From the NCBI RefSeq assembly GCF_000346465.2, contig NC_034009.1, positions 26,316,042-26,380,041 on the forward strand: a stretch of 64,000 bases of DNA, in the 5' to 3' direction. Positions 7,255 through 20,362 of this stretch are shown here, piece after piece (position 1 is the first letter of the stretch; each line of letters opens with the position of its first letter). The notes under the pieces were generated by a model. The model searched no databases. It saw only the letters and a list, made by a program, of their open reading frames with translations, and had not been told where the DNA came from. Origin of the DNA: Prunus persica (taxonomy: Eukaryota > Streptophyta > Magnoliopsida > Rosales > Rosaceae). Made by a program: the position numbers and the translations under genes.

Positions 7255-8416
7255 TAAAGCTGGAACTGTTTGGAAACACCAGTTCAATGAACATTTTCAT
7301 TAATTTCATAACTTGCACATGGGAAAGTAAACATTGACTTGGTTATGTTAGCTTATAATGGTTGCCTACTGTTTAACGACAATTAGAAAGTAGTTAATCC
7401 ATTTTTTCTTCTTCTTCATTTAAAAATTAGTGCCTCAAGCCAAGAATCAATCAAATAATAACAAAATTCAGTGGCCATTCTATATCCCAAGCTGGTAAAC
7501 CCAAACACTGAATACATATTTGTGACCAAACTGAATTTGATAAAAACAATTCGCCATCTTCATTACCCATATTAACATTTGCAGCAAAATCAAGAAAAAG
7601 CATGAACCATCTCAAATTCTAGAGAGACAAACAAAAAAACAGAGCACCGAGACGCACATAAACTGGAGAAAGAAAACCCCATAGCACTGGAAATTAAAAG
7701 AACCCAGTAATGATAGCTCAAGAAGAATAAACGAGCCACAACTGGACTAGATATTAAGCAGGGAGATAGAATGAAATGAATGGTTCACTTACAGTTACAG
7801 AGAAAATCCAATCAGAAGAATAGTCATTCCAGTCTCCAATTTATGAAGCTGATCCAAGAATCTGCTGTTTTTAATTCGCTGTTCATTTTTTGAATACTTT
7901 TGTTCCAACTTTCTACAGATTTTGGAGAAGACCAAGCACGTGTTGCACATGTAATACGCAGCCAGCACTGAAATTCATCACTCAAGTAATAATCTAATGG
8001 TGGCGGTGCCTACACTTTGGGCTGTGGACCCCATGAGCTAAGGCCAAGTGTGACAACAATAGTTTGGTAGATGCCTAAATATGGGCCTTTCACATTCGAG
8101 GAATGATTTGGTCCAAGATTGCGGATCCCATATAAGCCCTATAACTCCAAGTTATTTGAACAAAATACAGAGTATTTGTGTGACTTCACATCCAATTATA
8201 TATAGGGTTCTTTAGTTTTAACTCATAAAAAACTTAACTAATTTGGAAAAAAGATAATTAATTTTGCTTAATTAATATAAAACCAAAGCCACCTAATTTT
8301 ACCAAAAGGACATCCAACAACCCTAAAATTACTACATGTGCCATTGTGCTTAACTGTCAAATACAGTTTATTTAATTATAAACCAAAACTTAAAACTGTC
8401 AAAACGACATAACATT
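7255..8416. other. Upstream region of the DUF220 gene and left flank of the MULE
   Basis: No coding region was recognised. The first few hundred bases should contain the 5' UTR and promoter of the minus-strand DUF220 gene. From about 8160 the composition turns strongly A/T-rich, up to the approximate left edge of the Mutator-like element. No clear terminal repeat or target duplication was found here. Confidence 0.45.
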
Positions 8417-8544
8417 CCTACAAAACACAACACAAAACGACACTACTCAAATTTAATCACTTCAAAAACTGGTTTCGCGCGACCTTTCATATCCCACTGC
8501 ATACCTACAAACTATTCTCCAAAAACGCAGCCGATGAGCAGAAA

Positions 8545-8652
8545 CGGGGACGACCGACGACGAGCAACAGCGATGGCGACGACGACGACGACCAACGACG
8601 ACGAGCAACGACCACCGACGACGAGCAACGACCACCGACGACGACCGAAGCT
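8545..8652. repeat. GAC/ACG-rich minisatellite near the left MULE end
   Basis: Imperfect repeats of CGACGACGAGCAACGACCAC type fill this stretch. They lie between the putative left edge of the element and the subterminal array. The minus-strand reading gives a Ser-rich low-complexity peptide that is not thought to be a gene. Confidence 0.75.
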
Positions 8653-8708
8653 AAACCGTAAGAAAATGAATCAGTACTCTCTTCGATTTTAGGTTTTACA
8701 CCGACGAT

Positions 8709-9245
8709 GGTTTCAGTACTGTTTCTTCCTTTTGGTTTCTGGTTATTTGTAGCAGATTTTGACCAGAAACTGCATTGCAGTTTCTGGTTCCATAATTCAA
8801 TTTCAGAGTGCTTTTTGCTAGGGTTTATGGGAATGTTATAACTGCTCATGAAGTTAAATGTGTTTTGATATTAGTTTCAGTACTGTTTTTGCCTTTTGGT
8901 TTCTGGTTGTTTGTAGCAGATTTTGACCAAAAACTGCTTTCAATTTCAGAGTGCTTTTTGCTAGGGTTTATGGTAATGTTATAACTGCTCATGAAGTTAA
9001 ATGTGTTTTGATATTAGTTTCAGTACTGTTTTTGCCTTTTGGTTTCTGGTTGTTTGTAGCAGATTTTGACCAGAAACTGCAATGCAGTTTCTGGTTCCAT
9101 AATTCAATTTCAGAGTGCTTTTTGCTAGGGTTTATGGGAATGTTATAACTGCTCATGAAGTTAAATGTGTTTTGATATTAGTTTCAGTACTGTTTTTGCC
9201 TTTTGGTTTCTTTTCACATTAAATTTTGAGCAGCAGTTTCTGGTT
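8709..9245 (+). repeat. Left subterminal tandem array of the MULE (about 164-bp unit)
   Basis: A unit with CAGTACTGTTTTTGCC, the TGCAGTTT palindrome, GCTAGGGTTTATGG and AACTGCTCATGAAG starts near 8709, 8874, 9017 and 9180. Spacing is about 164, 143 and 164 bases. The second copy lacks the part holding the palindrome, which accounts for its shorter length. Related units in the opposite orientation occur at 13.8, 15.35 and 16.7-17.1 kb. Confidence 0.9.
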
Positions 9246-9289
9246 GTTTGTTACAGATTTTGACCACAAACTGCAGTGCATATCACAAA

Positions 9290-12200
9290 ATGGAACAAGA
9301 AATGTCACCACAAAAGAATGAAGCTGAAAACCAACCAAAGCGCAGAATCAAAATGATGGCTCAAAAGATCAAAACAAAGCCAAAGCCAAACTATGATCGG
9401 AAAGCAAAGCACCTGGACTATGTCCAATTTCGGTGCAACGCCTATGCTTTCAACAGCATCATTAGAGACATAAAGGACAAGCTCAATGAAAGGCAGAATA
9501 AGCTTCTCAAGAAAACCCCTTTCTGGAACTTGATCGAGCTGTTTTACCGCCAGAGAATTGACATGAATAACATGAATAAGTCGGACCTTGACTTAGTACA
9601 GCTGCTCAAGAAATTTGATCCGGATACAAAGTCCTTCAAATTTGGAACCAAATCATTCCAAATCACAGGCAATGCAGTGACTCAGATTCTAGGACTGCCA
9701 AATGAAGGCAAATCTGTCAAACTTGTCAATGATAGGTACACTGCTACCTTCAGAACAAGGCACTTTGGAGAAAAGGGAAAACCATCAAAAAACCAGGTAG
9801 AAGCAGAATTACAAAAGACAATTGCCTTAGCAAACCAACCGAAGAAAGAAAAGAAAGAAGCTGAAGAAGAAGAAGAAGAAGAAGAAGAAGTTGATTACGA
9901 CAAGTAGGTGGTCAGCCTAATATTGATTCTGCTGTGCATGACATTCCTTTTTGCTAATTCTTCATCTACTTTGCATTGGAAATTATTTGAGCACTGTGTG
10001 AATCTAGACACACTTTCAAGCTATTCGTGGGCAAGAGCTGTTTCAGCCTACATGAATGAATCCTTGGCCGCAAAAGCAAAGAAGGGAGGAGAAGCCTCTA
10101 TAGGAGCTGTTTTAGGTTGCACTATCCTAATATTGGTAAGTAAAAAGTGGCTTATGCAATGCATTTTGAGTTTTAGGCAATGCAGTTTCCATTTAGTGCA
10201 ATGCAGTTTCCATTTACTGCAATGCAGAAATGGAAACTGCAACGCAGTTTCTGTTTTATCCTATGCAGTTTCCAACCTAATTTCTGAGATATCTTGTTTT
10301 TGAACTGTGCAGTTTCTACTGTGTGAGAGGACAAACATCATATAACCTATCCTTGGCAAGGAGAAAGAAACTCCTGCCATTCTTAAATGGAGTCTTGTGG
10401 AACTCCACACAAGATTCAACCAAATAAAAGACTTGAATGACATCGAGGTATGCAATTTATCGCATGTTCTGTTTTAATGTATCTTGAATGTGAATCCATG
10501 CTAAATCATTCTCATTGTACAGGGTATTTTCAAAACTCCTAAAAAGCGAAAAACTACCAGGGAAGAGGAAGACACTGTTGAGAAGGTAATTGAAATCTGT
10601 ATACAGTGCATTGCAGTTTGTGTTTTCTACATTGCAGTTTGCATTTTATCCAATGCAGTTTCTGAATCATTCAATCTCATTGTACAGGGTATTTTGAAAA
10701 CATATAAAAAGAGAAAAACTACCGGAGAAGAGGGAGACCCTCTTGACAAGGTATAAGAATCTCTAAACAGTGAATTATGCATTTCAGTTTTCGTTTCCTC
10801 CAATGCAATGCAGTTTCTAATTAGTTTCTGTTCAATATGCAGGAAAAAGAAAAAGAAGATGATGAGGGACAACAAGGAGAAGCAGAGGAAGCAGAAAACC
10901 AAGGAAAACCTGATGATGCTGATCAAACTCCAGAATTAAAAGAGGCTGGAAAGAAGAAAATGTTTGAGAATGAAGCTGGAAAAGAACCTCTTGCAATTCA
11001 AGACCTCTTGGTGAAGTCCATGACAGACCAAATCAACTATCACCAACAACAAGATCCTAGCTTCGTTTGCCCGGAAAGATTACAACTGTGGAAGGATGAA
11101 AAAAATGAAGACAGTGAGAAGAAAATGAAGGAATTGTGGGATATATTTATCCAAGCAGAAAAGAGATCAAAGGAGCTGGAAGTGGAGTTGGCAACATACA
11201 TAGAGAAATTAGATAATGAAGAATGTGTGACTGCCACCATGACAGTGGAATCTACAGTTCAGCTTAATGAAATACAAAATCTGAAAAGGAGGATTGCAGA
11301 ATTGGAAGGCAAGGAAACTCGTATTGACATGGAGAAGATTGCCAAGAAAAAGGAGATTCAAGGAAAGTACAAGGCAGAAATTCAAAGCTTGTTGTCAGAC
11401 CCAACAATCTTTGAAATGGAGATGGATCTGCCTACAAAACAACCAACACAACCAGTTGAAGAGAAAAAAGAAGAAAAGAAAGAAGAAGAGAAGCAACAAG
11501 AAGAGAGAGAAGAAGAAAATAAAGAACAAGAGAAGCAACAAGAAGAGAGAGAAGAAGAGAAGAAGCAAGATGTTCCAACACCTGATGTTCCTTCAAGAGT
11601 ACAAAGGGTGAAGAACAGAGAAAGAAAGAGGCTTCAAGCATCTTGCTATGTGTACGAAAAAAATAAGAAAACAAAAAAGGAGGCAAAAAAGGATGATGAA
11701 GAACTACCACAATTCAAGCTTATCTCTTCCGAGGAGGTATGCAATTACTGCAGTTCAAGTTGCTGCTTTTTTCTATTTTCTGCATTACAGAAACAGAAAC
11801 TGTAATGCAGTTTCCGTTTCCTGCAATGCAGTGTGTTATCTGCTTTATAGAAACAGAAACTGCAATGCAGTTTCCATTTCCTGCAATGCAGTGTGTTATC
11901 TGCTCTACAGAAATAGAAACTGCATTGCAGTTTCTGTTTTATCGAATGAAGTTTCTAATTAGTTTCCTTTCAATCTGCAGTTAACACAAGAGGCATCTCA
12001 GCCTGATGCCACAAATCCAATTCCTGATCCCCCAAAAGGAACGAGCCTTCATGATTCAATACCTGTAGATCTGCAACAATCAAGTGATGAAGATGAAGGA
12101 CAAAAAAAGCCAACAAAGAAAAAACTAGGATGGGGTCAGAGGAAGGTGTGGCAGAAAATTCCAAAGGCGGACAGGGAAAGAATTGAAAAACACTACTTAA

Positions 12201-13542
12201 GTACTCAACTTTGGTAATATCTCTATTCCAAAATAACAATTCTTTCATCTTTTAATTACAATTAAACTAAAACTAATCTTGTGAATTTCATGTATTCGAA
12301 TCCGCAGTGATAACTTTTGGGCAGGACTCAATGATGAGAAAGTGACAAACCATGATCTCAAAGATATTGTATGGGACCTGGAACTGTCACAAAACGTAAG
12401 TATTTACCAATTCTATAACACACACTGCACTGTATTTTTTATTTGTGCTACCTATATTACCAATTTATAATTTCATTTTTCTCCAATCAATGTGAAACAG
12501 GTTATTGAGGCCTATATCCAAATAGAGGAGGATAAAATAGAGCCCATGCAGACAGAGAGTCCACAGTACATGTCCACATGGACTTGGGTAAGTATTATTT
12601 TGAAAATTCAAAATTGTTTAAACAGACAATGCACTGCAGTTTTCGAAAAATATATACTAACAAATTGTCATTCTATGATATCAGACTTACATGCAAAGCT
12701 TCCAAGAGCCATCTTGGCACAGGTTCCTGTATGAACACTTACTTGAAAAACTCGGGAAATGCAGTGTTCTTTTCTTCCCGATTATTTCAAAAGAAGAGTT
12801 CCACTTCACACTTCTCACATTTCACAAAAATGAACGAAAGTGGAGACACTACAATCCACTTAGATCGTTGGGACGTAGAAAAGAAGAAAGGTGCATTGAC
12901 ATTGCTTGAAACTTTGTAAGTGGAATGAAACTGTCTTAATTTCTCAGCACAAACACAAACAGAAACTGCATTGCAGTTTCTTAATTATACATACTGCCTA
13001 ATTTCAGACCAAAACTATAATATGCAATGCACTGATTACCATTTCTTTTTCTCTTTTTTTTCTTCTTCTTTAAACAGGTTAATATTGTTGAAGGGTGGCT
13101 AGAATATATAAGACCTCAAGCACGAGTGTTCATAGAAACTAAAAAAAAACCAACAATTGTGAAGCAAAAGGAAGGGCCCCCGACACTTGTACAAAAAGAT
13201 TTGACTCCAACTGAAGAACTCACTCTCAATTGGATTATGCAAAATCCATTGCAGTTTCCATTTGAGGATGACATGGAATGTGCTCAACAAAGTGTATCTT
13301 CGTAAGAATTGTGTCTACTCAACTATTCATTACAGTTTGAAATCATTCAAAAGCAAAAAAAACTAATCTCGTATTTCATTTGCAGATTGGATTGCAGCAT
13401 GTTCGTCATGTTCTATATGGATAAAATAGCACAAGGACAGCCCATTCCAAAAAGCGTGGACAAGAAATTCATGAATGAATATCGAGCACAATATGTCACA
13501 AAACTCATACACCACAAAAACTGTATAATTAATCGTCTCTAG
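9290..13542 (+). pseudogene. DUF1985-like/coiled-coil/Ulp1 protease gene of the MULE, three in-frame stops
   Basis: Exons read as 9290-10135, 10313-10447, 10523-10585, 10688-10750, 10843-11736, 11981-12213, 12308-12395, 12501-12587, 12685-12915, 13078-13301 and 13386-13542. All junctions keep one frame over 1007 codons, but TAG (9905), TAA (10343) and TGA (12907) interrupt it. The first two exons resemble the DUF1985 region of transposon-borne Ulp1 proteins (FQITGNAVTQILGLP, then LCMTFLFANSSSTLHW and YSWARAVSAYM). The long fifth exon is acidic/lysine-rich coiled coil. The last three hold the C48 SUMO-protease fold: His in EEFHFTLLTFHK, then YNPL where many relatives have Asp, and Cys in SLDCSMFVMFYMD. 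In this family the protease cleaves SUMO-like tags; in transposons its role is unsettled. Exons 3 and 4 are a duplicated pair. Confidence 0.85.
10511..10752 (+). repeat. Duplicated 63-bp exon pair in the Ulp1-like gene
   Basis: Exons 10523-10585 and 10688-10750 both have 63 bases, start with GGTATTTT after CATTGTACAG, and encode GIFKTPKKRKTTREEE and GILKTYKKRKTTGEEG. The duplicated block is about 165 bases and includes the 3' part of the preceding intron. Both copies are phase 0, so either or both can be spliced without breaking the frame. Confidence 0.88.
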
Positions 13543-14184
13543 TGATTTGCCTTTCGTTAACTCAAGACAATATGTATCTTAATTCTTGTGGATGTTTGTA
13601 AATATTTCTAGTTATGGTATATGAGAACATATTTCCTATACATATAAACTGTAATATAATCTTGGAACATGATGCAACAAAACGAAAAGGAAACAAACAA
13701 ACTGCACTGAATTTTCTGGTCAAAAATACTGCAACAAATTAAAACTGCAGTGCAGTTTATATAAATAAATAAAAATAAAAAATCAGCTCAAAAAATGTGA
13801 AAAGAACCCAAAAGCCAAAGCCATAATCAAAGTACTAAAACTTTGTTCAAAACACATTTAAGTAGGTCAGCATTGAAATGTAGTTTCTGCTCATAATCTG
13901 CAACAAATAAACAGAAACTGCACTGCAGTTTCTGCAACAAAATCTGCTCAAAATCTGAAAACAAGCATTGAATGGCAGTCGAAAATGAATATCCACTCAT
14001 TAAACAATTGTATAATTTTCATTAACTTCAAAAAAGAATCACAATATCCAATTAGAAGCTGTGTAGCCAATTACAAGCAACTAAAACTGCAATGCAGTTT
14101 TTGCAAAAAGTGCAACGCAGAAACTGACTATACATTCACTAAACCATATCTAAAATAAAAAAATTGTCAAATGAGAAGGAGTGT

Positions 14185-16618
14185 TCATATAATAGCCTTG
14201 CAAGTCTTCCTATTGTGCCCAGCAACACTGCACCGACTGCATTTCAATCGCCTTTTAAATTCACCAAAAACTTTGATCCTCTTTGTTGGTGGTCTTTCGG
14301 CTGGCCTCTTTGTAATTGGCGGAAGCACAACTCCAGCTGCAGAACCATTGCTGCCCAATCCTTTCCCAATATCTGGAATAGGAAAAATAGGACTCTCATA
14401 GGCTTTTCGAAAGAAGTCGGTTTTATAGTAACACTCCACGTAATCATAAACTGAATCTCTCTTTGCTAGGATTGCAGCCACCGCATGTGTGCAAGGAAAA
14501 CCGTCAATTTGCCAAAGACGGCAGGAACAAGTCCTTTGCTCGAGATCAACCATCACAAAATAATCAGCAAATACTTCAAAAAATAGTGCAATTAGAACGA
14601 CGAACTGCCCAAGTCCTACCGGCCTCCGCATTTTCACAGAGTCTAGTTTTCATCTCCAGACACAAAACTGTTGTCCACTTCTCCGCTTCAATTCGTCGTT
14701 GAGCATTCAATACCATCAATTTCTGTCGAATCCCTTCTATCAAAGGTAGCACCAGCAAATCTCGAAACACACCAACCCAATTATTAAAGGACTCCGCTAA
14801 ACGGTTTGCCATCTCCCCATAACGCATTCCTTTGAAAAATGCGTTGGCATAGTGATCTCTAGACAAATCAGATATAAATGCCTTCACTTTCGAACTCCCA
14901 ACAATCACCAACTCCTCCATTGCTACCTTAAACTCTTCCTCCGTAACAGCATATGCGCATTTACTAAATAAATTGATAACACGGTCTTGGAGCAGTTTCC
15001 CATAACCTGACTTCGGGTACTTTGATATCAAATTCTGTTTAAGGTGATAATAACAGTAAGAATGAGGCCATCCGGGAAACACAAACCCCATTGCATTTAA
15101 CAAACCTTGATTGCGGTCCGAGAAAAAGGTCACCACTCTCCCCATCGGTAGCAATATAGAAGCCAAATGTTGAAGAAACCAAGTCCAATTCTCCTCTGTC
15201 TCAGAATCAACAACTCCAAAAGCTAGAAATAAAACCCTGCAAAACAAAACCAAAAGCACAAGTATAAGCAAAAAAAGGGAAACTGCAGTGCAGTTTATGA
15301 AAACAAATCTGCTCAAATTTGAAATGAAACCAAAAGCCAAATCCATGATCCAAGTACTAAAACTAAGTTTAAAACACATTTAAGTTCATGAGCAGTTACA
15401 ACATTCCCACAGACATGCAAAAAATATTAATAAAATCGAATTATGAAACAAGAAACTGCAGCTAAAAATTGCAACAAATGAAAATCTGCAATACATTACA
15501 GTAACCATACCTTGATTTCCATTCTTTCCCGAAGCACAGAGAAGCTGCCCCTTGTACTTGCTCTTCAAAAACGTAGCATCAATGAACAACAAGGGTATGC
15601 AATATTGAAATCCAGCAATGCAACCGCCAAAAGACACAAAAAACCGTCGAAAGCGATTAATTCCAGCTTCACAATCAAGAGTGCAGAGAGAACCAGTGTT
15701 AGTTTCCTTTACAGCGTCCGCATACCACACTAACTCGTTGAAGGACTTCGACTCATCACCGTGAACGTCCAATTTAGCTAACTCTTTGCCAAACCATGCG
15801 TGGTAGTATGAAATGTCTATACCATAGTAAGCTTTGAACTCGTGTATAATCTCAACTGGCTTTAGCTCTGGTTTTGCACGAATTCTGTCCACAATGAGGG
15901 AGGACACCACACGAGACCTCATCATCTTACTCTTTGATTCCCGTATCCGACCTGCACATGTATGAACATTATTTAACGTCCGAATTACAAAACTGCCAGT
16001 AGCTTCACAACGAGAAGCATAAACATGCCAGCTGCAACCCTCCAATTTCTTATTCGAACAAACAGCAACCACCTGCTTCTTGTCATTGCTGGCATATAAA
16101 AAATTAAATCCTACTTCAAGAGCGTACTTGCACAATTTCAACCGGAACTCCTCTGCACCACCGTCAAACTTCTGCCCCACATGATGTATGTATGTCTCCC
16201 ACTCATTCGACAACAAAGGCTTAGCACTTGCTCTCTTCGACCTGCCCAAAAACTCGTTTCTGTCTTCGACAGTACTAGAACACGACGACTCGCCCTTTTC
16301 ACATGCTATCAACTCCTTATTTACACAAAAATCACCACTATATTCACTGCTCCCGCATAAATCCTTCACTAAAATATCAACAGTCTTCTCATTTGATATC
16401 AACAAAAATGTCCTCATCAAGTCCAAATCGCTATCCATTTCTAGAAAACAACTCGGATAACTGGGCACCGAATACCGTAATGTGAAACAACCCAACTGCA
16501 AACCCCTAAACCTCAGACACAAAGTCTTCAAAATATCAACCATGGATGACTCTGATGAAACTGAAAACATGATGGTTTCCGACTTATATGTGCACTTGGC
16601 AATGACACACACCTCCAT
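14185..16618 (-). pseudogene. MuDR-type MULE transposase with a frameshift
   Basis: Start chosen at MEVCVIAKC (16618). The N-terminus (about residues 1-90) resembles a PB1-like domain, followed by a FAR1/MuDR DNA-binding region with Cys/His pairs (CSNKKLEGCSWHVYAS, NNVHTC). The MULE transposase core has the first Asp in LLFIDATFLKSKY, the second in FFSDRNQGLL, and the HSYCYYHLKQN signature; a Glu follows in NRLAESFNNW. Then come a SWIM finger (CSC...CTH) and a CCHC knuckle (CSRCSVAGHNRKTC) near 14200. Exon 1 ends at 15511. With the nearest acceptor the frame is lost; an acceptor at 15222 (CTAG|C) keeps it but drops a few core residues. Beyond this, an A6 run on the plus strand at 14578-14583 shifts the frame just before the SWIM finger. 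The gene appears inactive, or the run is a sequencing error. Confidence 0.88.
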
Positions 16619-16679
16619 TAGCCTTGAAAATGCGAACAAAACAACAAACAAAAACAGAAAACAATTAAAATCACTAAAT

Positions 16680-17160
16680 AATGTACATGAGCAGTTGTAA
16701 CATTCCAATAGAAATCCAAATATTAGTATGAAATCGAATTATGAAACAAGAAACTGCACTGCAGTTTATAGTCAAAAACTGAAATAACAGAAACAACATT
16801 GCACTTTATGTGATAACATACCCTTAAATTTGAATAGAAACCAAAAGAAAACCATGTTCAAAGTACTAAAACTTAGATAAAAACACATTTAACTCCATGA
16901 GCAGTTGTAACATTGCCTTTTGAAACAAGAAACTGCAATGTAGTTTCTGCCAACACTCCAACAAACAGATGCAGTTTATAACAGAGGAGGCAAAACAAAT
17001 CGAATAGAAACCAAAAGGAAACCACGTTAAAAGTACTAAAACTAATATCAAAACACATTTAACTCCATGAGCAGTTGTAACATTGCCTTTATGAAACCAG
17101 AAACTGCAATGCAGTTTCTGCCAACACTCCAACAAACAGATGCAGTTTATAACAGACGAA
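16680..17160 (-). repeat. Right subterminal array of the MULE, inverted relative to the left
   Basis: A unit with AAAGTACTAAAACT, AACACATTTAACTCCATG, AGCAGTTGTAACATT and the palindrome is repeated with a period of about 170 bases (around 16860 and 17030), with a shorter copy near 16690. Read on the minus strand it matches the left array at 8.7-9.2 kb. Further single copies lie at about 13.79-13.87 and 15.30-15.42 kb, in the 3' flank and intron of the transposase. Confidence 0.88.
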
Positions 17161-17210
17161 GCAAAAAAAATCGAGCCACAAAACTGAGCTCGAAAAACCC
17201 AAAACTGACA

Positions 17211-17530
17211 GATTCGGCATGATAATCGAACGAAAGATTATCCAATTAGAAGGAAACAAACAAACTGCACTGAATTTTGGAACAGGATGTGGCATGATAA
17301 TCGAACGAAAAAGATTCGGCATGATAATCGAACAAAACAACTGACAGATTCGGCATGATAATCGAACGAAAAAGGAAGAAATATAAGGAAAACCAACTAG
17401 AAAATTGAGCTCCAACGGCGAGAACGAAAACGAAAACGAACGAAATCTGCCTGCCAAACGAACGAAATCTGCCTGCCAAACGAACGAAATTTGCCTGCCA
17501 AACGAACGAAATCTGCTGCCAAACAAACGA
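17211..17530. repeat. Two short tandem arrays at the right MULE end
   Basis: GATTCGGCATGATAATCGAA-type units recur four times between 17211 and 17370. They are followed by four copies of a 22-bp unit (GAAATCTGCCTGCCAAACGA type) at about 17436-17525. They lie between the inverted subterminal array and the approximate element end. Open frames across them are low-complexity (QISFVWQADFV repeats) and not gene-like. Confidence 0.85.
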
Positions 17531-17610
17531 GGACGAAAACGAAACAGAGAGAGAACAGGCTCGCGCCTTGTTTAAACATTCAGGGGCAAAAACGTCATTT
17601 ACTTTGTAGG

Positions 17611-18103
17611 TTTACAAATGGGCCAGGCTTTTTAAGAAGAAGGGTAGAATTGACTTATCAATTGTTATTTTTTACCTGGCTCAACGAATCTGGGCCTCTC
17701 TTTGGGCTAATCCAAAATAGTAGTTTTTTTCTAGATATTAAAACTAAAACCAAAATATCTAATATCTTACAAACTAATTAATAAAGTTAATTATGTCTAA
17801 AACCTAATTTTCTTTTATATATAAAGTCTCTTGTCACAACTTATTTATGAAACAAACTTTGGCAGAAAGTATTCTCATTCATCATCATGAGAATATGAGA
17901 TAGCAGAAGGATATCCACCCTCAACATTCATAAGTTCATAACACAACATCTGCACTCTTTTGGATCACAATTTTACATCATCCCATAAGCTTTAAGCCTC
18001 TTGACTTATGTAATTAGCATAGCACACAAAACACCTTTGTATAAAGAGTAAACAGACAGCACAGTTACAAAAACCAGAAACATACTGTAACTCAGATAAA
18101 TTC
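17611..18103. other. Flank between MULE and NRX-A
   Basis: A/T-rich, no coding region. The part from about 17880 to 18103 is likely the 3' UTR and downstream flank of the nucleoredoxin gene on the minus strand. Confidence 0.45.
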
Positions 18104-20362
18104 TCAAACTTTCCGGCACACATCACCATCACAAATGTATCCCTCCATTGCATTTGGAGCATCAGCTTTTGTTCCTTCCTTGTTGCTCAAAGCACATCTT
18201 GGGTGGAGATGAAAGTCACATTCTTTGCAGTAAAAAGACCAACCACTTCCCGGCTCCCTACACCAGCAAACATATTCGTGGTGAAGTACCCGTGTGAGCT
18301 CATGTTCAGCATGGAGTTCACTCTTCACTTTCTCAGGCCACCCCTTTGCTTCTTCCTCTAACTTTTCTTCCAAATGCTTCAAATGCTCTTCTGTGAATGG
18401 ATATGCATCAGCTCCATATGCTTGTATGAGCTGCCGTGCTTGCGTGCTGAGTGTCTGGCCATTGGGGCTAATGGCCACCAATGCAGGAATGCCTTGGATT
18501 TTGAATTTGCGCTGCACTAATGCCTTCCTTGGATCACCTAGCGGGAGGGCTAACCAAGGCATGGTCGAAAAGAACTCTTTGAAGGAGGAATGATCACGAT
18601 CACTTGAAATGAAGATAATTTCAAATGCACTATCCTTTGCCTTAATCTGATTGTATGCTTTTATAAGCTTAGGCATGAATGCGCGACATGGGGGACACCA
18701 ATGAGCTGAGAAATAGAGCATAATGTGCTTCCCAGCAAGCTCAGATACCGGTACCTATAGTCAAAGATAGAACAGAAACTTGAAAAACGCAATTAGAAAA
18801 CCTCTAATTAATGACCATAAAGAAACCTTTGAAATTCAATGGCATGGAAGATTAGAAAAGATTGAAGATTTTGAACCAAGAGGAAAATTGTACCTTGGAA
18901 CCGGTCTTTTCAATCACAAAGTTTCTGTCCCCAGCAACCAACAGTGACTCCAGAGTCTGTTCTTCGAGTTTTGCCTTTGAAATATCAGCAAGCTCAGCAA
19001 TCTTCTCAGCTGTAAACGGGTAGGCTTCAATGCCATACTCTTCAATGAGTTCAACTGCATTTGGGCGTAAGGTCTTCCCATCTTGCCCGATTATAACCAG
19101 TGTAGGTACATTTTCAAGCTCAAAGTGGCGAGCAAGTTTTTCACAGCTCTTGGCCTTAAATGGCAGTGCCAACCATGGCACTTGAAACCCTTGTTTGAAG
19201 TGTTCCTCTTCATAGTCTAGAGATATCAACACAATCTCAAAGTTCTCTCCTTTCTCCTTGAGTTTCTCATGGAACTTCAGAAGTGCCTGAGTAAAATCTT
19301 GGCATGGCTTGTGAGTATGAAGTGAGAAGTACAGGCCAACCATCTTTCCTTCAAGCTCAGATACAGGAACCTGCAAATACATGTACTCATGATCATCAAC
19401 TATCTCATTCATGTAAAAAAGAAAAGAAAAGAAAAGAAAAGGGGCAACCCAATATCATAGAAGTTCTAGCAATGTTGGCATGGGACAAAAAGTTGTACCT
19501 TACTCCCATCTTTCGAAATCAAATAATCCCGAGACCTAGAAACCAAGAGAGAACTCAAGGACTGATTCTCCTTAGCAGCTGCTTCTTGCTCTTTCAAGAA
19601 ATTGATCTTTTCCGCGGTGAATGGATAACCATCAACACCATGTTCCATCACAACTCTAGTCCCTTGATCAGTAGAAACCTTCCCATTGGCATCAATAATG
19701 ACAAGATTAGGAATCCCCCTAACCTTGAACAACTCCTTTAAGCGTTTTCGGGCCTCCAAATCTGAAAATGGAATGGCAAGCCATGGCATTTCAGAGAAGT
19801 AGCCACTGAATGACTTATCGTCTCTATCAGAAGAGATAAACACAACTTCAAAATCGCCTTTGGATGCCAAGTCCTGGTAGACCTCCACCAAGCTTGGGGT
19901 GAAACGGCGACATGGACCGCACCATGAGCCAGAAAAATACAACCCCACAATCTTTCCGCTCAAACTACTGATCTCAACCTACATATTCATCAAAGATCAC
20001 CATGACCCAGAAAATCAAACAGAGTCATCTCAATCTGTTTTTCATATAATCAAATGTCAAAGTCAAAACTTTGAGATGAAATTGGGAAAAAAAGCAATTG
20101 CAAATCATTTAATCAACTGGGTTTCTTCTATAACACATTTAGATGAGCATTCTAATATTCCCAAACAAAATGCGAACACTGCGGTCTGCTTTTTTTCTTC
20201 TCCAATCTCCATGAACATAAAGATGAAAACTTTATCAGAAATAATCAATTTCTGAGTATGGTTTACCTGGTCGGCGTTGTTGTGGACGAGGAAGTTCCTG
20301 TCCTCGGAGGAAAGCAGCGAAAACAGGTCGTGAACAACGCCGTCTTCGTCGCCGTTGGCCAT
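18104..20362 (-). CDS. NRX1: Nucleoredoxin A (three thioredoxin-like domains plus C1-like tail), 4 exons
   Basis: Exons are 20362-20267, 19978-19499, 19370-18894 and 18754-18104, giving 566 residues plus a stop. All introns are phase 0 and each of exons 2-4 is one thioredoxin-like domain, so gene and protein modules coincide. Active sites: WCGPC at residues 51-55 in domain 1, a degenerate THKPC in domain 2 with only one Cys, and WCPPC near 370-374 in domain 3. The tail has a C1-like zinc-binding pattern ([29 protein letters not shown]). Plant NRX1 proteins of this length and layout are disulfide reductases of cytosol and nucleus; family work links them to protection of antioxidant enzymes such as catalase. 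No signal peptide is seen. It is the most diverged of the three full-length genes here and lacks the local duplications seen for B and C. Confidence 0.93.

Follow-up and report, generated by a model that had tools for sequence, protein, structure and literature searches.

A 64,000-bp stretch of the genome of peach, Prunus persica (contig NC_034009.1, positions 26,316,042 to 26,380,041 of the forward strand; hereafter the window), contains a non-TIR Mutator-like element (MULE), i.e. one without long terminal inverted repeats (TIRs), in which a 17-bp palindrome, AAACTGCANTGCAGTTT, recurs throughout the noncoding parts. We propose, with a probability of about 0.7, that this palindrome is read in dimeric form by the VANC-like protein of the same MULE family (peach family 1) and that this protein thereby counters silencing. 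Among candidate readers the VANC-like protein is the most likely one, because the peach element matches the layout of the Arabidopsis VANC systems and of the KI-MULEs.

A scan of the entire window recovered 11 exact copies of AAACTGCANTGCAGTTT, every one of them within the MULE. Relaxing the search to at most one, two and three mismatches gave 14, 19 and 24 sites respectively, with starts spanning 8767-17262 and none outside the element even at three mismatches. These figures agree with a first-pass annotation of this DNA, which had reported 11 perfect and three one-mismatch copies confined to one element and had placed them in introns, intergenic parts and subterminal arrays. The 14 sites, none of which has a strand assigned, are distributed as follows:

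8767..8783, exact palindrome, left subterminal array
9074..9090, exact palindrome, left subterminal array
10234..10250, palindrome with 1 mismatch, VANC intron
11797..11813, palindrome with 1 mismatch, VANC intron, 60-bp tandem repeat
11857..11873, exact palindrome, VANC intron, 60-bp tandem repeat
11917..11933, exact palindrome, VANC intron, 60-bp tandem repeat
12963..12979, exact palindrome, VANC intron
13742..13758, exact palindrome, between the two genes
13915..13931, exact palindrome, between the two genes
14084..14100, exact palindrome, between the two genes
15280..15296, exact palindrome, transposase intron
16751..16767, exact palindrome, right subterminal array
16930..16946, palindrome with 1 mismatch, right subterminal array
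17101..17117, exact palindrome, right subterminal array

None of the 14 overlaps coding sequence in an element that is about 54% coding by approximate exons, a placement with P of about 2e-5 if the sites were independent, which the tandem copies are not. The left and right subterminal arrays have opposite orientations, and the contexts of the sites are of several unrelated kinds, with several copies lying inside tandem repeats of 60, 143 and 170 bp. The exact half-site TGCAGTTT occurs 41 times within the element against 0.9 expected from first-order resampling, with a single one of the 41 overlapping coding sequence, and is absent from the remaining 54.4 kb of the window, where 2.9 copies are expected. 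Across these 41 half-sites the eight positions of the other arm carry 0.67-1.46 bits as opposed to 0.08 bits at the center, where A, T, G and C are all seen, so the free center and conserved arms described earlier are real features of the motif. Binding sites of dimers classically look like this, with a fixed spacer and a free center in a palindrome.

The genome-wide count that the first-pass annotation had suggested was made on the 227.5-Mb assembly (192 contigs) and yielded 870 exact copies of AAACTGCANTGCAGTTT, against none of a backwards-read control and a chance expectation of about 0.1 by arithmetic from base composition. The 1-bp spacer is fixed, since the same arms are found just 3 times with a spacer of 0 bp and twice with one of 2 bp; in 369 of the 870 sites the symmetry extends to 23 bp through an outer CAG...CTG. 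Individual positions were listed for 50 of the 870 sites, all of them from the initial 12.6 Mb of contig 1, and 41 of these lie within 12 kb of a match to the family-1 transposase or VANC-like gene. The other nine are spread over five loci of a nonautonomous family, four of which were fetched (L001, L043, L044 and L045) and the fifth assigned by context. From these 50 listed sites the motif appears to be specific to this MULE family and the nonautonomous family that shares its ends. The transposase exon has at least 123 matches in the genome, 36 of them (window included) at least 96% identical over nearly the full exon, and the 30 transposase loci that were fetched, one being the window copy, carry 2-6 exact palindromes each per 4.1 kb. 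One further locus (L046:1892-5352) is an internally deleted family-1 copy of about 3.4 kb, with the target-site duplication (TSD) TAAATATAA, that has kept its palindromes.

A comparison with the older copy L039, aligned to the element from 9289 to the right end (6918 of 8362 bases identical, i.e. about 17% diverged; the sequence read does not reach its left end), showed that: 1) at the eight of 14 sites that align cleanly, the other six being badly aligned or in gaps, the arms are identical at 119 of 128 positions versus 408 of 495 in the flanks (p = 0.0024). 2) At the same eight sites only three centers are identical (p = 0.0065 versus flanks). 3) Over all 14 sites the arms are identical at 165 of 194 positions versus 573 of 752 in the flanks (p = 0.0085). 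4) L039 has 16 sites at no more than two mismatches, nine of which align with window sites of equal quality, the rest having been gained or lost. The center base differs at five of the eight clean sites (12963, 13915, 16751, 16930 and 17101) versus about 18% in the flanks, an excess that is perhaps due to conversion between sites. In the older copies L039, L051 and L052, C>T or G>A accounts for 19 of 37 mismatches, as expected if these copies were methylated and silenced. L051 retains two sites at one mismatch or less, and decayed copies therefore lose the motif; L052 keeps 11, of which those at 1402-2296 resemble the nonautonomous family and include C1:31175002.

The nonautonomous family has little in common with the autonomous element other than its ends and the palindrome. 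Similarity to the MULE is seen in L001 at the left end (102 bp, 73.5%) and in L044 at the right end (192 bp, 71%); these two loci are 93% identical to each other over 201 bp at the left end and about 80% inside, and L043 and L045 match L001 in pieces at 75-90%. Away from the ends these loci resemble the autonomous element only around motif sites, and their palindromes either belong to a roughly 164-bp tandem repeat with no relation to the autonomous element or are spaced at 20 bp. A context-specific pattern located 73 sites in 49 loci of this family, 71 of them at a distance exceeding 12 kb from all listed matches to family-1 genes (the match lists being lower bounds). That a cis element is common to sequences in which nearly everything else differs argues for a reader acting in trans. 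The first-pass annotation had itself raised the alternative of a single duplicated block without arm conservation; block duplication is insufficient, and ruled out as the sole cause, because the nonautonomous family carries the palindrome in unrelated tandem repeats, and the arms are conserved.

Half-sites also occur on the same strand in arrays with a period of 19-21 bp, two of which are:

10172..10227, plus strand, same-strand half-site array, 21-bp period
10609..10661, plus strand, same-strand half-site array, 21-bp period

The 69 same-strand pairs in distinct contexts (loci L002, L003, L005 and L007, which repeat the sequence of other loci or of the window, being set aside) have spacings of 19-21, 31, 40-44, 53, 60 and 62 bp, with one pair each off this pattern at 27, 65 and 67 bp. 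At a period of 10.5 the phasing gives R of 0.62 with a mean phase of -3 degrees. Helical phasing is only suggestive, with a period that the data do not fix, because every period examined between 10 and 11.5 gives a similar R (0.52-0.65) and the pairs include many homologous ones. Helical periodicity is reportedly named as a feature of VANC targets in the abstract of a 2022 VANC paper.

The element and its two genes were delimited as follows:

8196..8204, left TSD TTATATATA, 9 bp
8205..17814, non-TIR MULE of peach family 1, 9,610 bp, bounded by sister-copy alignment and TSD
9281..13542, plus strand, VANC-like gene, exons approximate, by comparison with the sister copy L050
14188..16627, minus strand, MULE transposase (VANA-like) with DBD_Tnp_Mut, MULE domain and SWIM zinc finger
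17815..17823, right TSD TTATATATA, 9 bp

The motif-bearing MULE of the first-pass annotation is thus present, its span of 8767..17117 having been too narrow. Its terminal similarity is degenerate: the outer 200 bp match at 66% when end-aligned (E 0.67), and the best terminal match, 77.5% over 40 bp (E 1e-4), is not end-aligned. As the TSD is 9 bp and long TIRs are lacking, the element is a non-TIR MULE. The two genes are convergent. The transposase has DBD_Tnp_Mut (4.3e-11), MULE (2.1e-13) and SWIM (3e-12) domains, all above cut-off, and the VANC-like gene comprises in order a PMD/DUF1985-like exon 1, acidic and coiled-coil-like exons and an Ulp1-like (Peptidase_C48) C-terminus. This second gene with an Ulp1-like domain in reverse orientation to the transposase would, on sequence grounds, place the element with the KI-MULEs and their KIU-type VANC genes. 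The DUF1985-like/Ulp1 protein and the transposase of the first-pass annotation correspond to these two genes; neither gene is intact here, the first having an in-frame TAG at 9905-9907 in exon 1 and the second a frame shift near 14580 (14579-14649) at which the sister copy aligns in one frame. Exon 1 is open for at least 356 codons, with no stop, in 21 of the 98 matches listed. The VANC-like exon scores 0.00096 for PMD and 0.11 for DUF1985 in the window and 1.1e-6 for PMD, under the cut-off, in the sister copy; Peptidase_C48 scores 0.0034 and 0.02 on two window exons, also under the cut-off. Precomputed Pfam assignments on relatives give PF10536 (PMD) in many and PF02902 in P0004, P0012 and P0032-P0034, and a profile built from relatives matches SENP1 with E of 0.014 at best. 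The predicted fold of the VANC-like protein (mean predicted local distance difference test, pLDDT, of 39.8) is too poor for use. The Ulp1-like active-site cysteine is kept in the window (LDCSMF; 13386-13542) and in almond and apricot models (LDCGMF). The protease activity may be dispensable, since this residue is tyrosine in the sister copy (LDYGMF; L050:4907-5062).

The family-1 VANC-like protein is closely related to proteins of almond, apricot, Prunus campanulata and P. brigantina, and distantly to one from Rhododendron. In almond, for which a protein model (P0006) was available, the peptides ETAMQFLI, RNCNAVSG and QKLQCSFWF are consistent with translation of the palindrome, so that the motif probably predates peach.

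A second peach family (family 2, represented by L038 and its continuation L042) allows the motif and the proteins to be compared between families. Its transposase is 48% identical to that of family 1 over residues 118-371 and 39% over 4-371, and it has two VANC-like genes; their domains share 60-63% identity with one another and 31-33% with the family-1 domain. One VANC-like paralogue scores 5.5e-11 for PMD, above the cut-off, and 6.9e-7 for DUF1985, under it. The family-1 palindrome is absent from L038 and L042 at up to two mismatches, with one copy at three; instead these loci carry GTATKAACA (18 copies versus 0.5 expected) and YAGTRTTAY (18 versus 1.3). A 21-bp word of this family, YAGTRTTATTACCNTATACTG, has 97 genome sites against none for its control, and occurs also inside the fetched loci L041, L047 and L049, which carry relatives of the second family-2 VANC-like gene. 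The two VANC-like genes and two motif sets lie at L038:1378-8354 together with L042:1504-3751, and paired VANC-like matches about 4-6 kb apart occur at six places in the genome listing. A score for repeated 8-mers, with a null of 4.2-5.8 from 10 resamplings, reaches 41 in family 1, 25 in L039, 18 in L041, 14 in L042 and 10 in L038. The high score of L041 comes from another palindrome array (TAGTATAGCCG...); at L041:3417-4927 and 7571 there are 22 copies of TAGTATAGCC with at most one mismatch, many of them paired as 24-bp inverted repeats, within a roughly 650-bp repeat. Loci L035-L037, which have a transposase and no VANC-like match in the 10 kb read, lack the palindrome and score 6.0, 7.0 and 6.8, slightly above the null. 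Hence different motif sets accompany diverged VANC-like proteins, and between families 1 and 2, the only two compared in this respect, the motif appears to change with the VANC-like protein. The first-pass annotation had suggested checking whether motif and protein change together; they do so in this pair, and some VANC-like loci lack a strong motif.

Among known systems the closest parallels are those of the Arabidopsis VANDAL elements. VANC21 binds the motif YAGTATTAY, which recurs in the introns and in the intergenic and terminal noncoding sequence of VANDAL21 (Hiun), and removes the methylation of that family; the targets of VANC6 carry AGTTGTCC/AGTTGTAC, and VANC6 acts also on AT9TSD1, a motif-bearing element type unrelated to VANDAL (PMC5735166). 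The peach element shares with VANDAL21 a MULE-encoded VANC and a short family-specific motif in the same kinds of noncoding sequence, often in tandem repeats that turn over. It shares with VANDAL6 a motif of its own, and the action on AT9TSD1 (PMC5735166) recalls the peach nonautonomous family. The VANC21 motif is described there as non-palindromic and in one orientation (PMC5735166), whereas the peach motif is a 17-bp inverted repeat with a fixed 1-bp spacer. KI (Kaonashi)-MULEs are likewise non-TIR elements with an Ulp1 domain in reverse orientation to the mudrA transposase gene (PMC2528002), a likeness in gene layout. According to a 2026 review, VANC genes that carry Ulp1 (KIU) target their own types of motif, and conservation of the Ulp1 domain extends across eudicots (PMC13317346). 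The Arabidopsis VANC parallel drawn in the first-pass annotation is apt in noncoding location, tandem arrays, family-specific motif and Ulp1-carrying VANC genes. Identity with the VANC21 motif or with that of VANC6 was considered and rejected, as the element contains no copy of either. A YAGT core common to CAGTTT (family 1), CAGTRTTAT (family 2) and the published YAGTATTAY and AGTTGT is no more than suggestive, with CAGT enrichment in the element (134 versus 78) and none in L041 (66 versus 69). A family-2 motif contains CAGTATTAT (L042:2640, 3948, 4097 and others), a literal match to YAGTATTAY, and such literal matches number six in L038 and L042 versus 0.7 expected. Sasaki et al. (EMBO J, 2022) reportedly describe KIU motifs. 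Full-text searches, which did not extend to that paper on eudicot VANC genes, showed among the papers listed no report of a palindromic KIU motif or of a case in Prunus. A Prunus target in the form of a strict inverted repeat is apparently new, the motifs of VANC21 and VANC6 being non-palindromic.

By analogy with these systems, the palindrome would be the cis target of a sequence-specific factor from a peach family of VANDAL/KI-type MULEs, this factor most likely being the family's VANC-like protein with its PMD/DUF1985-like N-terminus, coiled-coil-like middle and Ulp1-like C-terminus. Each of two subunits would occupy one 8-bp arm, leaving the single base in the middle free, the coiled-coil-like exon presumably allowing dimerization, and the many sites and half-site arrays would load noncoding sequence in autonomous and nonautonomous copies alike. 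Binding would then counter silencing in that family alone, in the manner of VANC21 and VANC6 in Arabidopsis. We infer the binding, the dimerization, the identity of the reader and the anti-silencing effect from this likeness.

Several observations weigh against this proposal. Both genes of the window copy are broken, and with a TAG in exon 1 of the one and a frame shift in the other this copy cannot count as the source of either factor. The Pfam scores of family 1 fall under the curated cut-offs (28.5 of 34.9 for PMD and 19.6 of 20.7 for C48), and homology to Arabidopsis VANC was not reached in database searches that gave Prunus and one Rhododendron protein and scored only the candidates sharing most words. 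Of the 870 palindromes, 50 have individual placements and 73 were placed through their context. The correlation of motif and protein comes from very few families and is not a clean rule: L036, which lacks a VANC-like match, repeats the 9-mer AAGTCACTC six times, and the VANC-like loci L040, L047, L048 and L049 score as low as 5.1, 6.0, 4.0 and 7.0, with no transposase match within the 10 kb read at any of these four. Moreover, the reader is not cleanly separated, because transposase and VANC-like protein co-vary between families. L040 has an open-frame VANC-like PMD/DUF1985 exon and a coiled-coil-like exon (L040:5735-7625) with no strong motif in its 10 kb, and is possibly an immobile or domesticated copy.

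The same-family transposase (VANA-like, with DBD_Tnp_Mut and SWIM) might bind the palindrome instead, for transposition or autoregulation. Sites for mobilization would be expected to behave as the ends and palindrome of the nonautonomous family do, being nearly all that it has in common with the autonomous element, and the mutual inversion of the two subterminal arrays fits as well. The sites, however, are spread through introns and between genes rather than being kept near the ends, the loci with a transposase and no VANC-like match (L035-L037) have no comparably strong repeated motif, and in the published systems VANC is the motif reader (PMC5735166); hence we consider this unlikely. That a host DNA-binding factor reads the palindrome, the MULE family having amplified its site as enhancers or insulators, has precedent in sites of transcription factors amplified by transposable elements, peach included (PMC13317346). 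Nevertheless, all 50 listed sites belong to MULE families by proximity or context, which leaves hardly any indication of a host site of this form, the 54 kb of the window outside the element have none, and family 2 has other motifs in the same host, making such a factor very unlikely. Finally, a palindrome that is bound by nothing, is itself prone to rearrangement and has spread by tandem duplication and gene conversion could account for the copies in the 60-, 143- and 170-bp tandem repeats and in the repeat of about 164 bp of the nonautonomous family, and is scarcely tenable in view of the unrelated window contexts, the same 17-mer in a quite different repeat of the nonautonomous family, arms that outlast their flanks over about 17% divergence while the center changes, and a spacer fixed at 1 bp.

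If the VANC-like protein is indeed the reader, Rosaceae would possess a working VANC-type, motif-coded anti-silencing system outside the Arabidopsis work, with the 17-bp word as a possible sequence-specific demethylation tag. Questions of DNA recognition and dimerization would gain a simple target (one inverted repeat in 870 copies, with center and half-site variants and a matched family), and there would be a route to how nonautonomous elements come to share protection. As a tentative extension, which we regard as possible though doubtful, peach might contain two orthogonal VANC-like systems. In the first, the family-1 protein would be a coiled-coil dimer on a strict 17-23-bp inverted repeat and would multimerize along helically phased half-site arrays, and elements without VANC and with unrelated interiors would have acquired the palindrome and ride on its protection. 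In the second, family 2, apparently one element with two VANC-like genes (domains 60% identical) and two motif sets, would represent a specificity in the course of splitting in two.

Adjoining the element, the window contains at 18104-19963 minus-strand open reading frames with thioredoxin-like WCPPC/WCGPC motifs, which we take to be nucleoredoxin-like.

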